A stretch of DNA of 64,000 bases. It comes from Oscillospiraceae bacterium (lineage in GTDB: Bacteria; Bacillota; Clostridia; Oscillospirales; Oscillospiraceae). The notes beneath the pieces were generated by a model that saw only the letters and a list, made by a program, of their open reading frames with translations, was not told where the DNA came from and ran no database searches. Both the position numbers and the translations under genes were made by a program. The DNA lies in assembly GCA_022846075.1 (NCBI GenBank), contig AP025582.1, positions 930,001-994,000 on the forward strand, in the 5' to 3' direction. This document shows positions 48,958-51,870 of the stretch, one piece after another (the stretch's first letter is position 1; each line of letters begins with the position of its first letter).

Positions 48958-49889
48958 TCCATCCTCACCTGCCCCTCGCCCAGCGCGTTGACGATGGTTT
49001 TCACATTATCACGGATGGCGTCGGTATAGGCGGCCAGGGAGCTGTCTGTCCCGCTCATGACCATGGAGAGCTGACACACCTCCACCCCGGTCTCCCGGGC
49101 GATGGCCTGGGCGGTGGCCTCAGAGCCGTTGACCTCGGTGAAGATAGCGGGGAGGCCGTATTCCCCGATGAGGGAGACGATCTCCTTGATCTCCTGGGCG
49201 CTGGCCTCGCTGCCCTCCTCCTCTTCGATGGCCTTGAGGATGGTGAAGTCGAAGGCGTCGGCGAAATACTGGAAGCCGTCGTGGAAGGTGATGAGCTCCC
49301 GGTGGGAAAACTGGGGGGTGATGCCCTCCAGGAGGGTGGACGTTAGGCCGCGGAGCAGCGCCGCCTGGTCGGTGGCGTTGCCCTGATAGGTCTGGGCCTG
49401 GGCCCCGTCGAGCGCGGAGAGGCCTTTGCCGATGCTCTCCACCATCTGGGCGGCCCGGTCCGGGTCCATCCAGATGTGGGGGTCGTACTCTTCCTCGTGG
49501 TCGTGGCCGTCGTGTCCCTCGTGCTCCAGGGTGGGCAGAAGGGCGACGCCCTCGGAGGCATCGATGACGGCGGCCTTGGACTGGGCCAGGGCGTCGGACA
49601 TGAAGTCCTCCAGCCCCACCCCATTCATCACGATCACGTCGGCCCCCTCGATGGCCTTCATGTCGGTGGTGGTGAGGGTATAGTCATGGAGGCAGGAGGT
49701 CTGGGAGTTGACCAGCAGGGAGACCTCCACCCCCTCCGCCCCCTGGGTGACGGCGGTGGTAAAGAGGTACACCGGGTAGGTGGTGGCCAAAATGTGGAGG
49801 GTGTCGTCCTGCTCCCTCTGAGGGGCGGAACAGGAGGTGAGCAGAAGGAACAGGGCCGCCAGCAGGGCGGACAGGGAACGTTTTTTCAT
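48954..49889 (-). CDS. znuA: zinc ABC transporter substrate-binding lipoprotein (ZnuA type)
   Basis: A 311-residue lipoprotein (signal ending LLLTSC, lipidated Cys21) of the cluster A-I metal-binding family. It has TTYPVYLFTTAVTQGAEGVEVSLL, the acidic histidine-rich loop EHEGHDGHDHEEEYDPHIWMDP typical of zinc-specific members, FSHRELITFHDGFQYFADAF and the C-terminal GTDSSLAAYTDAI. ATG 49889 follows GAGGT. It is first in the operon and has its own strong promoter. No clear Zur box was recognised. Confidence 0.92.
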   Translation of the reverse strand: MKKRSLSALLAALFLLLTSCSAPQREQDDTLHILATTYPVYLFTTAVTQGAEGVEVSLLVNSQTSCLHDYTLTTTDMKAIEGADVIVMNGVGLEDFMSDALAQSKAAVIDASEGVALLPTLEHEGHDGHDHEEEYDPHIWMDPDRAAQMVESIGKGLSALDGAQAQTYQGNATDQAALLRGLTSTLLEGITPQFSHRELITFHDGFQYFADAFDFTILKAIEEEEGSEASAQEIKEIVSLIGEYGLPAIFTEVNGSEATAQAIARETGVEVCQLSMVMSGTDSSLAAYTDAIRDNVKTIVNALGEGQVRMD

Positions 49890-49922
49890 GGGATACCTCG
49901 CTTTTTCCGAATTGCAAAGCAC

Positions 49923-49951
49923 ATTATACCCGATTCCACCTGGTTTGTAAA
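49923..49951 (-). promoter_or_regulatory. promoter for the znuACB operon
   Basis: Minus strand: TTTACA, a 17-nt spacer and a perfect TATAAT, 34 nt before the znuA start. Confidence 0.75.
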
Positions 49952-50009: not shown

Positions 50010-50038
50010 TTGACGACTCCCCCGGCGTCTGCTATAAT
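50010..50038 (+). promoter_or_regulatory. strong promoter of the ABC-F leader
   Basis: TTGACG at 50010-50015, a 17-nt spacer and a perfect TATAAT at 50033-50038. The transcript should begin near 50045, leaving a leader of about 250 nt before the ABC-F start at 50297. Confidence 0.82.
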
Positions 50039-50050
50039 GGGGCCAATCGA

Positions 50051-50092
50051 ATGGGAAGGGAGCTGGAAGGCTTGCGCAATATTTCTCGCTGA
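50051..50092 (+). CDS. candidate 13-residue leader peptide (uORF)
   Basis: ATG at 50051 opens a 13-codon frame (MGRELEGLRNISR) that stops at TGA 50090-50092. It starts about six bases after the predicted transcription start and has no Shine-Dalgarno sequence, so translation would be near-leaderless. Its codons overlap the RNA segment that pairs with the distal leader. This is what is expected for ribosome-sensing control of antibiotic-responsive ABC-F genes, but translation is not shown by the sequence. Confidence 0.4.
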   Translation: MGRELEGLRNISR

Positions 50093-50230
50093 ACGACGGA
50101 AGGAAAAGAGGGGACGCCGTCCCCATCTCTTTTCATGCCGTCCCGCGGGAAATCACGCGCTCCTTCCAGCTGCGCCCTTTCAGGGCGGGGCTGTGAGAAG
50201 GCATGCTTTCTCGCGGCCCCTTTTGTTTTG
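50061..50230 (+). promoter_or_regulatory. candidate transcription attenuator of the ABC-F gene
   Basis: Segment 1 AGCTGGAAGG (50061-50070) is exactly complementary to segment 2 CCTTCCAGCT (50162-50171), with added GCGC/GCGC pairing (50074-50077 with 50157-50160). Segment 2 can instead join CAGC-CGCCC (50167-50177) to GGGCG-GCTG (50183-50193), which would block the terminator. The terminator is a continuous 13-bp stem counting wobble pairs (50187-50199 with 50208-50220), then TTTTGTTTT. An extra hairpin, AAAAGAG-GGGACG against GTCCCC-CTCTTTT, lies near 50103-50133. The alternatives are mutually exclusive. Confidence 0.65.
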
Positions 50231-50296
50231 GATCCTCTGTGGCACGGGCGGACATGCCCCTGTCATGGGGACTTGCGCCTGAAAGGAGAACCGCCT

Positions 50297-51781
50297 ATGT
50301 CTATGATCGAGATCAACCATCTGACCTTTGCCTATGAGGGCAGTTACGACAACGTGTTTGAGGACCTGACCCTCCGCCTGGACACCTCCTGGCGGTTGGG
50401 ACTGGTGGGCCGCAACGGCCGGGGAAAGACCACCCTCCTGCGCCTCCTCGCCGGGGAGCTCTCCGGAGGGCGGGCCGTCCGCAGCGGAGTGTCCGCCCGC
50501 TATTTTCCCGCCCCGGTCCGCCGCCCGGACCGGATGACACTGGAGGTGCTGGGGGAGCTGTGCCCCGCGGCGGAGGACTGGGAGATCATCCGGGAGCTCT
50601 CCCTTCTGGATGTGGAGATCGAGGCCCTCTACCGCCCTTTCTCCAGCCTGTCCGGCGGGGAGCAGACCCGGGCCCTCCTCTCCGTCCTCTTTCTGGACGA
50701 GGGGGCCTTTCCCCTCATCGACGAGCCCACCAACCACCTGGACGAGGCGGGCCGCCAAACGGTGGCGGCCTACCTCAAGCGCCAGCGGGGCTTCCTCCTG
50801 GTCTCCCACGACCGGGCCTTCCTGGACGGCTGTGTGGACCACATCCTGGCCCTGGAAAAGACCGGCGTCCGGCTCCAGGCGGGCAATTATTCCGCCTGGC
50901 GGGCCGACACCCAGCGTCGCACAGCCTGGGAGGCCCAGCGGGACGCCCAGCTCAAGCGGGAGATCGGCCAGCTCAGGGACGCCGCCCGCCGGACGGGGGA
51001 CTGGTCGGAGAAGGTGGAAAAGACCAAGAACGCTGGGGCCGCGGCCTCCGGGCTGAAGGCGGACAAGGGCCGCGTGGGCCATATGGCGGCCAAGATGATG
51101 CGCCGCTCCAAGGCCATCGAAGCCCGCCGCCTCTCCGCCGCCGAGGAGAAGGAGACCCTTCTCCGAAACGTGGAGGAGGCCGAGCCCCTGAAGCTCCGCC
51201 CCCTGGCCTTCCAGGGCCCCCGCCTCCTGGAGCTGCGGGAGGCCGCCCCCATCTACGGCGGCAGACCAGTGTGCCCGCCCGTCTCTCTCACCCTGGCCCC
51301 CGGCGAGCGGGTGGCCCTCACCGGCCCAAACGGCTGCGGAAAGACCAGCCTTTTAAAGCTCCTGCTGGGCGGGGAGCTGGACCACACGGGGGAGGTGCTG
51401 CGTCCCGCCCGCCTCACCGTCTCCTATCTGCCCCAGGACACTTCCTTCCTCCGGGGGAGCCTGGAAGAAGCCATGGAGACGTGGGAGGTGGACCCGGTCC
51501 TCTGCCGGGCCATCCTCCGCAAGCTGGGGCTGGAGCGCCGCCAGTTTGAAAAGGACCTGTCTGGGTACAGCGCGGGGCAGAAAAAGAAGGTCCTTTTGGC
51601 CCGGAGCCTCTGCCAAAGCGCCCACCTCTACGTGTGGGACGAACCCCTCAATTATATCGATCTCTGGTCCCGCCAGCAGGTGGAGGAACTGATCCTGGAG
51701 TACCGGCCTACTCTGATCTTCGTGGAGCACGACCGGGCCTTTCGGGAGACGGTGGCCACCCGGACGGTGGAACTGGGCTGA
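50297..51781 (+). CDS. ABC-F type ribosomal protection protein (Lsa/CplR-like)
   Basis: A 494-residue protein with two ABC domains and no membrane part. Domain 1 has Walker A GRNGRGKT, signature SSLSGGEQTR and PLIDEPTNHLD. A charged interdomain linker (about 215-300, with KTKNAGAAASGLKADKG) is the segment that reaches into the ribosomal tunnel in this class. Domain 2 has GPNGCGKTS, YSAGQKKK and WDEPLNYID. Phrases such as RELSLLDVEIEALYRPFSSLSGGE closely resemble Lsa-family proteins, which protect against lincosamides, streptogramin A and pleuromutilins. The substrate spectrum is inferred. ATG 50297 follows GAAAGGAG; the frame is open back to 50135, but without a ribosome site. Confidence 0.88.
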   Translation: MSMIEINHLTFAYEGSYDNVFEDLTLRLDTSWRLGLVGRNGRGKTTLLRLLAGELSGGRAVRSGVSARYFPAPVRRPDRMTLEVLGELCPAAEDWEIIRELSLLDVEIEALYRPFSSLSGGEQTRALLSVLFLDEGAFPLIDEPTNHLDEAGRQTVAAYLKRQRGFLLVSHDRAFLDGCVDHILALEKTGVRLQAGNYSAWRADTQRRTAWEAQRDAQLKREIGQLRDAARRTGDWSEKVEKTKNAGAAASGLKADKGRVGHMAAKMMRRSKAIEARRLSAAEEKETLLRNVEEAEPLKLRPLAFQGPRLLELREAAPIYGGRPVCPPVSLTLAPGERVALTGPNGCGKTSLLKLLLGGELDHTGEVLRPARLTVSYLPQDTSFLRGSLEEAMETWEVDPVLCRAILRKLGLERRQFEKDLSGYSAGQKKKVLLARSLCQSAHLYVWDEPLNYIDLWSRQQVEELILEYRPTLIFVEHDRAFRETVATRTVELG

Positions 51782-51825
51782 GCCCGGCGGCATGTTGCCG
51801 CCGGGGGCTGGAAAGGTCTCAATCA

Positions 51826-51862
51826 AAAAGCGCCGTGCCCCGAAAAGGGGCACGGCGCTTTT
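51826..51862. terminator. bidirectional intrinsic terminator
   Basis: AAAAGCGCCGTGCCCC at 51826-51841 pairs with GGGGCACGGCGCTTTT at 51847-51862. Another hairpin (AGCCCGGCGGCA against TGCCGCCGGGGGCT) lies at 51781-51809 just after the stop codon. Confidence 0.9.
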
Positions 51863-51870
51863 GCGCGGTT

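Follow-up and report, generated by a model that had tools for sequence, protein, structure and literature searches.

A predicted ribosome-sensing transcription attenuator upstream of an Lsa-related ABC-F gene, with switch helices conserved in related bacteria

Does the leader of an ABC-F gene in an Oscillospiraceae bacterium sense a ribosome held by a drug, and which of its segments would do the switching? The gene lies in a 64,000-nucleotide stretch of contig AP025582.1 (positions 930,001 to 994,000; hereafter the window), for which a first-pass annotation had proposed a two-state device, with a terminator forming when no ribosome is present and an antiterminator forming when a drug stalls one. 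The comparative evidence supports this idea well, although several of its details had to be corrected, and we conclude that the leader is very probably a ribosome-sensing transcription attenuator of an Lsa-related ABC-F ribosome-protection gene. The features involved are collected in Table 1.

Table 1. Features of the leader and its gene, in window coordinates.
Feature	Position	Strand	Basis or remark
Sigma-70-type promoter, TTGACG-17-TATAAT	50010..50038	+	11/12 consensus bases; TG before -10
Shine-Dalgarno AGGGAG of leader frame	50057..50062	+	sequence; Shine-Dalgarno-like run in relatives
P1 5' strand, in uORF Shine-Dalgarno region	50061..50070	+	pairs with 50162-50171
Putative uORF TTG CGC AAT ATT TCT CGC TGA, (M)RNISR	50072..50092	+	aligns with relatives
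S1, uORF tail, 5' strand of anti-antiterminator	50081..50089	+	pairs with 50145-50153
Inner stem-loop of anti-antiterminator hairpin	50095..50142	+	fold; varies among species
S2, switch segment	50143..50153	+	pairs with S1 (off) or S4 (on)
P1', 3' strand of P1	50162..50171	+	on-state: can extend antiterminator with part of S3
Small hairpin GCCCTTTCAGGGC	50174..50186	+	antiterminator tip in masked fold
S3, terminator 5' arm	50187..50201	+	stem reading, covariation
S4, terminator 3' arm	50206..50220	+	50207-50216 pairs with S2 in antiterminator
U-tract TTTTGTTTT, expected termination site	50221..50229	+	sequence
ABC-F gene Shine-Dalgarno region; AAGGAG at 50283-50288	50278..50288	+	includes complement of 50176-50184
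Lsa-related ABC-F ribosomal protection protein, 494 aa	50297..51781	+	profile and structure-relative matches

The gene had been described as Lsa/CplR-type, and the Lsa half of this label is the part that holds. Its best NCBIfam family is Lsa (NF000167), matched over the full length with 643.9 bits; since this falls below the curated cut-off of 750, we call the gene Lsa-related rather than Lsa. Membership of CplR was rejected (NF043038, 141.3 bits against a cut-off of 780). The model for ribosomal protection-like ABC-F proteins (NF000355) is matched with 425.3 bits, above its cut-off of 380, and the best solved relative of the product is Lsa(A) (7nhk, E 5e-124). According to PMC10201436, proteins of the LsaA type shield the ribosome against three drug classes: pleuromutilins, lincosamides and streptogramin A.

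The promoter proposed for the leader is present, matching the consensus as listed in Table 1, and transcription would be expected to start near 50045; four related leaders (L085, L086, L089 and L090) also carry promoter-like sites 59-62 nt 5' of the uORF. The proposed terminator stem is likewise found at 50187-50220, with 15 pairs followed by TTTTGTTTT. Across 31 aligned leaders its arms (S3:S4) are paired in 87.1% of cells, against 49-52% in slid controls, and show the strongest covariation among the helices counted. The leader as a whole folds at -101.8 kcal/mol, whereas 200 dinucleotide-shuffled versions of it average -69.7 +/- 4.9 and none of the 200 folds as well (z -6.5).

Could the gene instead be controlled mainly in translation, through access to its Shine-Dalgarno sequence, with the hairpin at 50187-50220 terminating little? 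In favour of this reading, CCTTTCAGG (50176-50184) is complementary over 9 nt to CCTGAAAGG (50278-50286), a match equalled in length in 7/1000 letter shuffles of the leader, and across the 31 leaders this anti-Shine-Dalgarno pairing is stronger between own than between swapped partners (-15.5 vs -13.1 kcal/mol, 0/2000 permutations as good). The orthologues L084 and L086 can form about 14-16 contiguous pairs, in different letters, between a pre-terminator stretch and the gene's Shine-Dalgarno sequence, and for Clostridioides difficile cplR translational attenuation is enough by itself to bring about repression (PMC10201436). However, a 15-pair stem running into TTTTGTTTT is a textbook intrinsic terminator with the strongest covariation among the helices counted, the position of the Shine-Dalgarno partner varies in a free search of ten same-genus loci, and the same search in the window returns a best-scoring partner other than 50176-50184. 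Moreover, both layers can coexist, as in vmlR. We consider mainly translational control unlikely.

Returning to a transcription attenuator that senses ribosomes, the leader frame had been read as a 13-codon uORF at 50051-50092, starting with ATG and lacking a Shine-Dalgarno sequence. This frame is open and shares its phase and stop with the frame from TTG 50072, but its start appears to have been misread. The ATG at 50051 lies only about 6 nt past the expected transcription start; at this place the orthologue L082 has an ATG in another frame than the conserved uORF, and L084 lacks one. In the alignment with relatives the start falls at TTG 50072, which gives a six-codon frame, and AGGGAG at 50057-50062 provides the Shine-Dalgarno sequence thought to be missing; a Shine-Dalgarno-like run lies 5' of 122/124 short leader frames. 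TTG starts are rare in the group (4/124), in a tally that excludes 6/130 rows, either because no start codon lay within 4 columns or because the frame exceeded 8 codons. The tallied frames span 1 to 7 codons, in Paenibacillus being at their shortest just a start and a stop codon, and most begin MR.. or MI.. and include S-C codons, with no run of a single amino acid; in MRK leaders the S-C letters are located 3' of the stop codon. Because the pattern used to select training rows favoured Arg at codon 2, the Arg excess in those rows is partly a product of selection; outside them, codon 2 is Arg in 31 and Ile in 27 of 93 short frames. The range of 1 to 7 codons suggests that occupancy of the start codon, rather than the peptide, may be what is sensed.

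The 1:2 helix of the original proposal can form: AGCTGGAAGG (50061-50070) is the exact complement of CCTTCCAGCT (50162-50171), and the minimum-energy fold contains this pairing as well as the second one, between GCGC at 50074-50077 and 50157-50160. Its conservation in homologous leaders is divided: a swap test across species favours it (own -19.8 vs swapped -17.0 kcal/mol, 0/2000 permutations as good), whereas at fixed columns it is paired in only 154/309 cells of the 31 leaders, about 50%.

Two other helices are better kept. S1:S2 shows covariation and is paired in 78.0% of cells in the 31 leaders, against 44-55% when slid, with its inner five pairs reaching 94.8% and its outer four only 55.9%. 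S4 repeats the letters of S1 at 50207-50216 (TTTCTCGC), and the alternative helix S2:S4 (50143-50152 with 50207-50216), the putative antiterminator, is paired in 83.2% of 309 cells (44-57% slid) with a covariation score reached by 0/500 shuffles. In two sets of rows outside the training set, aligned with a covariance model that did not contain the S2:S4 helix, the pairing holds as well: in 71 distinct rows 94.9% of 511 cells are paired (40-72% slid) and all five measures are reached by 0/500 shuffles, and in 29 phylum-wide rows the figure is 97.2% of 215 cells (41-78% slid). Both percentages are raised by the preference of the covariance-model alignments (A2 and A3) for consensus letters. The S2:S4 duplex also passes the swap test (own -14.9 vs swapped -10.5 kcal/mol, 0/2000 permutations as good), although swap and shuffle tests alike leave shared ancestry in. 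Two of the measures, which count doubly changed pairs and additional pair types, stay within the range of the shuffles for S2:S4 in the 31 leaders (132 and 148/500) and the phylum-wide rows (126 and 459/500), and for S1:S2 in the 31 leaders (34 and 372/500). S2:S4 is weak in L087 and L091 (-4.8 and -5.3) and in L118, L132 and L127 (-9 to -10), and has one A.C mismatch in L082 and L084, which are among the nearest orthologues. 

The antiterminator first proposed, 50167-50177 with 50183-50193, fares differently, being paired in 37.7% of pair cells of the 31 leaders, within the 31-47% of slid controls. Since the alignment of the region 50167-50193 is poor, weight also falls on the swap test, which needs no alignment; here the gain for the P1' region with S3 is slight (own -13.2 vs swapped -12.6 kcal/mol, 115/2000 permutations as good), and this pairing was rejected as the conserved switch. 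Conservation in homologous leaders, which the first-pass annotation had itself named as its test, is thus failed by its own antiterminator and passed by the corrected S1:S2 and S2:S4 helices. The pairings of the original wiring do exist, and 50167-50193 can still form the tip of the window's longer antiterminator in the masked fold, a window-specific arrangement. Together with the ATG at 50051, which is not kept in frame in L082 or L084, the pairing data make it quite unlikely that a 13-codon ATG frame and an antiterminator consuming the terminator's 5' arm are the exact wiring. On the comparison of sequences, the decisive switch segment is 50143-50153, not 50162-50171, and the conserved antiterminator is predicted to take the 3' arm of the terminator, not the 5' arm.

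When the RNA is masked from -20 to +16 as by a ribosome, the antiterminator-minus-terminator energy of the window leader, +17.3 kcal/mol unmasked, drops to -0.9 kcal/mol, and the mean of the 31 leaders drops from +17.7 to +1.9 kcal/mol, a shift that is partly built in because the anti-antiterminator is present only in the unmasked terminator state. By energy alone, the masked state still favours the terminator in 17/31 leaders, with 1 tie and 13 opposite, and by as much as +16 to +18 in L127, L087 and L091; folding order during transcription must therefore matter.

How widely is the leader shared? Because a search with its DNA gave matches in just 1/98 other genomes, the survey relied on protein searches and a covariance model. 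For training, 107 distinct upstream regions were searched for a short frame fitting the Arg-favouring pattern and 33 were chosen by hand; L063 and L090, for which the terminator finder failed, were omitted, and L120 and L081 had their ends placed manually. The resulting model, built on 31 leaders including that of the window, gives the latter 106.7 bits, and the next best place in its own genome 19 bits. Within 250 genomes of the family, the leader lies at most 350 nt upstream of 51/64 genes closely related to that of the window, and 13 of these 51 leaders had served for training. The count rests on 63 model matches, a list that omits some weak matches close to its lower end and everything scoring below it; one of the 51 loci (G151) scores just 23.2 bits. 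A match of 32.5 bits (G162) was a false positive, adjoining by eye an apparent small ribosomal-protein gene and Rnf-type genes, and matches near or below about 33 bits are accordingly distrusted. Among public loci that were not used for training and offer 229 nt or more of upstream sequence, 52/63 also have the leader at most 500 nt upstream. The covariance model detected no leader at 13/64 family loci and 11/63 public loci. Four family genes lacking a match (L184, L187, L190 and L192) seem on visual inspection to have a leader frame and a hairpin of divergent sequence. In a phylum-wide sample of 29 matches, an Lsa-like gene follows in 25 cases, the remnant of such a gene in 2, a different ABC-F gene in 1 and none of these in 1. 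The model finds the leader upstream of mobile lsa(E); an R1 model match is absent upstream of lsa(B), one Priestia Lsa gene and one E. gilvus ABC-F gene. Because so many related bacteria share the leader, the switch is very probably real.

No description of the leader group was found in the open-licence literature among the titles, abstract openings and passages listed. Rfam 15 gave no match at gathering score across the whole window; under relaxed settings, the leader matched only the mir-627 model (21 bits, cut-off 86), and seven related loci gave just two matches, to a microRNA model and to a Burkholderia sRNA model, which fell short of the cut-offs and lay outside the leaders. A classical amino-acid attenuator, T-box-like sensor or metabolite riboswitch would share the general plan of a leader frame with alternative hairpins, but is scarcely credible here given frames that lack a one-residue run and are sometimes merely a start and a stop, Rfam matches that are unrelated and far below cut-offs, and a downstream gene for a ribosome-protection ABC-F protein.

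For the preferred ribosome-sensing attenuator, we propose that in the off state ribosomes translate the 50072-50092 frame and leave, whereupon S1 (50081-50089), with P1 outside it, would pair with S2 (50145-50153) to close the long hairpin of the anti-antiterminator; the terminator 50187-50220 would then form and the RNA end near 50228. In the on state, a drug blocking the first peptide bonds would hold the ribosome at the start codon, masking the Shine-Dalgarno region and S1, and the freed S2 would pair with S4 (50207-50216), so that the terminator is lost and the gene transcribed. Candidate inducers, judging from the gene family, are a lincosamide, pleuromutilin or streptogramin A, to which the product would presumably confer resistance. 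As a second layer, for which the evidence is weaker, the anti-Shine-Dalgarno segment 50176-50184 may close the gene's ribosome site unless the antiterminator forms.

With this arrangement, many Lsa-related genes across Bacillota have a proposed mechanism of control specific enough to be tested, and the leader of transferable lsa(E) falls into the same group as that of the window. The natural series of 1-7-codon frames can be used to ask whether the nascent peptide or start-codon occupancy is sensed; for VmlR, frame identity is reported to be crucial for induction (PMC10201436). It seems to us evenly poised whether the leaders form an unnamed Bacillota-wide RNA family that senses a drug-held ribosome on the start codon whatever the peptide, with the S-C motif acting as an RNA tail that needs masking, and that travels with mobile lsa(E).

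Several known leaders can be compared with that of the window. The vmlR leader of Bacillus subtilis (uORF MIN; PMC9226507) resembles that of the window in layout, with the uORF inside an anti-antiterminator hairpin, an antiterminator tipped by a small hairpin, an intrinsic terminator and a stem covering the gene's Shine-Dalgarno sequence, for which the window has a candidate. Both genes are ABC-F and expected to act on the same drugs; VmlR is ARE2, whereas the window gene is Lsa-related (ARE3-like). Unlike vmlR, the window group has mostly MR../MI.. frames with S-C codons, and the window terminator's 3' arm repeats the uORF tail. The C. difficile cplR leader (uORF MR[I/M]; PMC10201436) shares with the group an MR-starting short frame in a 5' hairpin, as well as terminator/antiterminator alternatives combining transcription and translation attenuation, which are predicted in the window. 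The window gene, however, is not CplR (141 bits against 780), and in cplR it is the terminator stem that sequesters the Shine-Dalgarno sequence of the gene, whereas the window stem ends 76 nt before the gene. The enterococcal lsaA leader (uORF MAGN, a uORF4u prediction; PMC10201436) precedes a gene of the same ABC-F subfamily and has a short, though different, frame. At rli53/lmo0919 of Listeria monocytogenes (PMC11550727), an ABC-F gene of another subfamily follows a leader terminator that is read through when lincomycin is present; read-through is predicted for the window. In Streptomyces coelicolor, toeprints on the leaders of are5sc and tiaA (PMC12421871) show that drugs of the lincosamide, pleuromutilin and streptogramin A classes inhibit the uORFs at their start codons, and one of the two uORFs uses a TTG start, as in the window; these are ARE5 genes of an actinomycete, with frames MLV and MVGDDDISG. 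Two marks of ARE ABC-F attenuators are found in the window as well: a putative short uORF with a Shine-Dalgarno sequence 5' of a resistance-type ABC-F gene, and an overlapping uORF-containing anti-antiterminator, antiterminator and intrinsic terminator conserved across species. The leader would thus very probably be a new member of the known ABC-F ribosome-sensing attenuators, such as those of VmlR and CplR.

The promoter, the terminator, the 10-nt complementarity (50061-50070 with 50162-50171) and the GCGC pairing described in the first-pass annotation are all present in the leader bases, and the fold of 50045-50232 reaches -101.8 kcal/mol (z -6.5), a value equalled by none of 200 shuffles. 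The reading frame, by contrast with the 13-codon ATG frame proposed there (50051-50092), aligns in relatives with a shorter TTG frame nested within it, and the supposed absence of a Shine-Dalgarno sequence is answered by an AGGGAG preceding that frame (see table). Upstream regions of relatives likewise carry a Shine-Dalgarno sequence and then a very short frame, such as ATGCGCAACATTTCTCGCTGA (MRNISR) at locus L082 and MRK, MRNFSC or MRKFSCK elsewhere. Among 130 distinct aligned rows, 124 carry a frame no longer than 8 codons, with a Shine-Dalgarno-like run ahead of 122 of these; taking as start the codon closest to the aligned column, by which individual assignments may err, 115 begin with ATG, 5 with GTG and 4 with TTG. 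Frame lengths are 6 codons (63 rows), 7 (36), 3 (15), 2 (5), 1 (4) and 5 (1). The second codon is Arg in 61, a count including 30 of the rows used for training, which were picked by an Arg-favouring pattern, followed by Ile (27), Lys (9), Tyr (9), Ser (5), stop (4), Phe (3), His (2), Asn (2) and Leu (2). The one-codon frames, in which a stop codon directly follows the start, occur at L219 and at three loci with Paenibacillus record titles (L007, L013, L020), the latter three being mutually consistent.

Features of the leader, its gene and their flanks (window coordinates)
Feature	Position	Strand or placement	Basis
Divergent promoter TTTACA-17-TATAAT, 11/12	49889-49951	minus	promoter scan
uORF Shine-Dalgarno AGGGAG	50057-50062	+	sequence
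uORF TTG CGC AAT ATT TCT CGC TGA	50072-50092	+	alignment with relatives
ABC-F gene, ribosome-protection type, full-length	50297-51781	+	NCBIfam profile scores
GC-rich long inverted repeat, A and T runs flanking	51825-51863	between ABC-F and convergent transporter gene	by eye

We then compared the switch helices across an alignment of 31 leaders, selected for possessing a short leader frame. The terminator (S3:S4, 50187-50201 with 50206-50220) was paired in 87.1% of cells against 49-52% when its arms were slid as a control, with all five measures matched by none of 500 shuffles. The antiterminator S2:S4 (50143-50152/50207-50216) was paired in 83.2% of 309 cells (slid 44-57%); its percentage, double-changed cells and covariation score were each matched by 0/500 shuffles, while the number of double-changed pairs and the pair types showed no excess (132 and 148 of 500). 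The anti-antiterminator S1:S2 (50081-50089/50145-50153) was paired in 78.0% of 273 cells (slid 44-55%), with the inner five pairs at 94.8% and the outer four at 55.9%. The antiterminator originally proposed (50167-50177 with 50183-50193) was not conserved in this poorly aligned region (37.7%, slid 31-47%). Exchanging helix partners between species, a test for which exact pair alignment is unnecessary, favoured own over swapped partners for S2:S4 (-14.9 versus -10.5 kcal/mol), S1:S2 (-12.2 versus -8.7) and the uORF Shine-Dalgarno region with 50162-50171 (-19.8 versus -17.0), each equalled by 0/2000 permutations. Across species the original P1 helix (50061-50070 with 50162-50171) is supported by this exchange test only, with 154/309 cells paired at fixed columns; an antiterminator of the type first proposed, pairing the 50162-50171 region with the terminator 5' arm, barely differed (-13.2 versus -12.6; 115/2000). 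S2:S4 was weak at L087, L091, L118, L132 and L127, and at the first two a longer duplex begins further upstream (-15.3 and -17.3).

The covariance model R1, built from these 31 training leaders, contains only the anti-antiterminator and terminator helices, S2:S4 being absent from it. Applied to 88 further loci, it gave 79 matches, or 71 distinct rows that all differ from the training rows. In these, S2:S4 pairing held in 94.9% of 511 cells (40-72% when slid), 33 changes were double-sided and all five measures stood at 0/500; 7-8 rows per pair lack letters, and partial or doubtful matches are included. In 29 phylum-wide matches, one of them identical to an earlier row, 97.2% of 215 cells were paired (slid 41-78%), with two of the five measures no higher than shuffles.

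Both states were also forced, either on the free leader or with positions -20 to +16 relative to the start codon masked as by a ribosome. Masking lowered the antiterminator-minus-terminator energy in 31/31 leaders, from +17.3 to -0.9 kcal/mol in the window and from +17.7 to +1.9 on average, a shift owed partly to how the states are defined; the masked terminator is still preferred in 17/31. In the window's antiterminator fold, 50162-50171 and part of S3 pair within S2:S4, and the helix first proposed forms its tip, which reconciles the two wirings.

In longer leader frames S1 encodes ..S-C, whereas in MRK leaders it lies beyond the stop codon with its pairing to S2 kept, and the terminator arm, which is non-coding, repeats the S1 letters. 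Read most simply, RNA pairing rather than peptide sequence determines the S1 codons, and a ribosome stalled on the start codon would suffice for switching. As a counterpoint, lincomycin induction of VmlR reportedly depends crucially on the identity of its frame (PMC10201436).

A second layer closing the gene's Shine-Dalgarno is suggested, not proven. CCTTTCAGG (50176-50184) can pair throughout with CCTGAAAGG (50278-50286), a stretch overlapping the Shine-Dalgarno of the ABC-F gene; this match length was equalled in 7/1000 letter shuffles, and own partners pair better than swapped ones across the 31 leaders. At the orthologues L084 and L086 some 14-16 contiguous pairs join the pre-terminator stretch to the gene Shine-Dalgarno with differing letters, and at other loci of the genus the partner sits elsewhere; a free search of the window ranked a partner other than 50176-50184 first.

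The gene product had been called Lsa/CplR-type. Lsa is its top-scoring family (643.9 bits) yet falls below the 750-bit cut-off, so we name the gene Lsa-related; the CplR half of the label does not hold (141 bits). NF000355 scores 425 bits (cut-off 380), and Lsa(A) is the best solved relative. The inverted repeat behind the gene resembles a bidirectional terminator common to the two convergent genes and is not in the computed terminator list. The divergent promoter stands back to back with that of the attenuator, directed by eye at an apparent metal (zinc-type) ABC transporter operon.

The single-contig, 3.23-Mb window genome has one strong R1 match, the leader itself (106.7 bits; runner-up 19). 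Within the genus, 10/16 genomes encode a close protein relative, all ten with the leader (7 are training rows). At family level, 64/250 genomes have such a relative (E <=1e-150), 51 with an R1 match within 350 nt upstream, a count with 13 training rows that retains any duplicates of these under other names. At E 0.01, R1 matches 83/250 genomes, many weakly and over short stretches. Matches scoring above 30 bits number 57, and 50 of them lie upstream of a listed gene; among the rest, G212, G169:C11, G174 and G215 precede Lsa-like genes that are contig-end-cut or less similar, G103 (the same as L180), with an MRK frame, precedes another ABC-F gene, G169:C6 lies at a contig end and G162 was rejected as a false positive. 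From 80 public loci chosen by protein, 77 had at least 229 nt upstream (14 of them training rows), and 52/63 untrained loci matched within 500 nt. Across the phylum, 30/398 genomes matched (E 1e-5), giving 29 loci excluding the window, 25 with the leader ahead of an Lsa-like gene and the other four being L203, L205, L227 and L221. The switch outlives its gene at L203 (1501-1973) and L205 (1501-1800): well-kept leaders (113 and 110 bits) precede only the beginnings of Lsa-type genes, similarity ending after 48 residues in the former and first codons being recognisable by eye in the latter. Weak matches before other ABC-F subfamilies at L180 (2542-2746, 33.0 bits) and L227 (1357-1600, 38.8 bits; NF000355 best, then Vga and Msr) indicate that the switch may not be restricted to Lsa genes.

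Separately, L221 (1501-1850) has a 53.8-bit match with a 23-codon frame ahead of an ECF sigma factor look-alike (by eye), no ABC-F being found within the locus. By eye, L196 (lsa(E)), L197 (lsa(B)), L198 (Priestia Lsa) and L176 have a second small frame close upstream of ABC-F, with its own Shine-Dalgarno and followed by a CCGACTTTG motif and, in the last three, a ACTCCGTAT / ATACGGAGT-like inverted repeat; this arrangement resembles an additional leader, perhaps a translational one, and is present at L197 and L198 where an R1 match is absent.

No Rfam family was found for this leader group, and the portions of open-licence papers searched yielded no description of it. The lsa(E) leader is a member: a 1,929-base stretch of L070 (titled Streptococcus porci) matches 116 plasmid records, 115 at >=99% identity, those listed being annotated lsa(E), and the region upstream of one such gene scores 64.8 bits. 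L069, L070, L072 and L073, titled as four different bacteria, share this score and length (236 nt); given the plasmid matches, theirs is likely a mobile copy, or contamination. Enterococcal lsaA has a previously predicted frame MAGN, unlike those of this group (PMC10201436), and the mechanism class is already known from vmlR and cplR (PMC9226507, PMC10201436), lmo0919 (PMC11550727) and Streptomyces ARE5 genes (PMC12421871), the vmlR model including, as in the window fold, an antiterminator with a small apical hairpin (PMC9226507).
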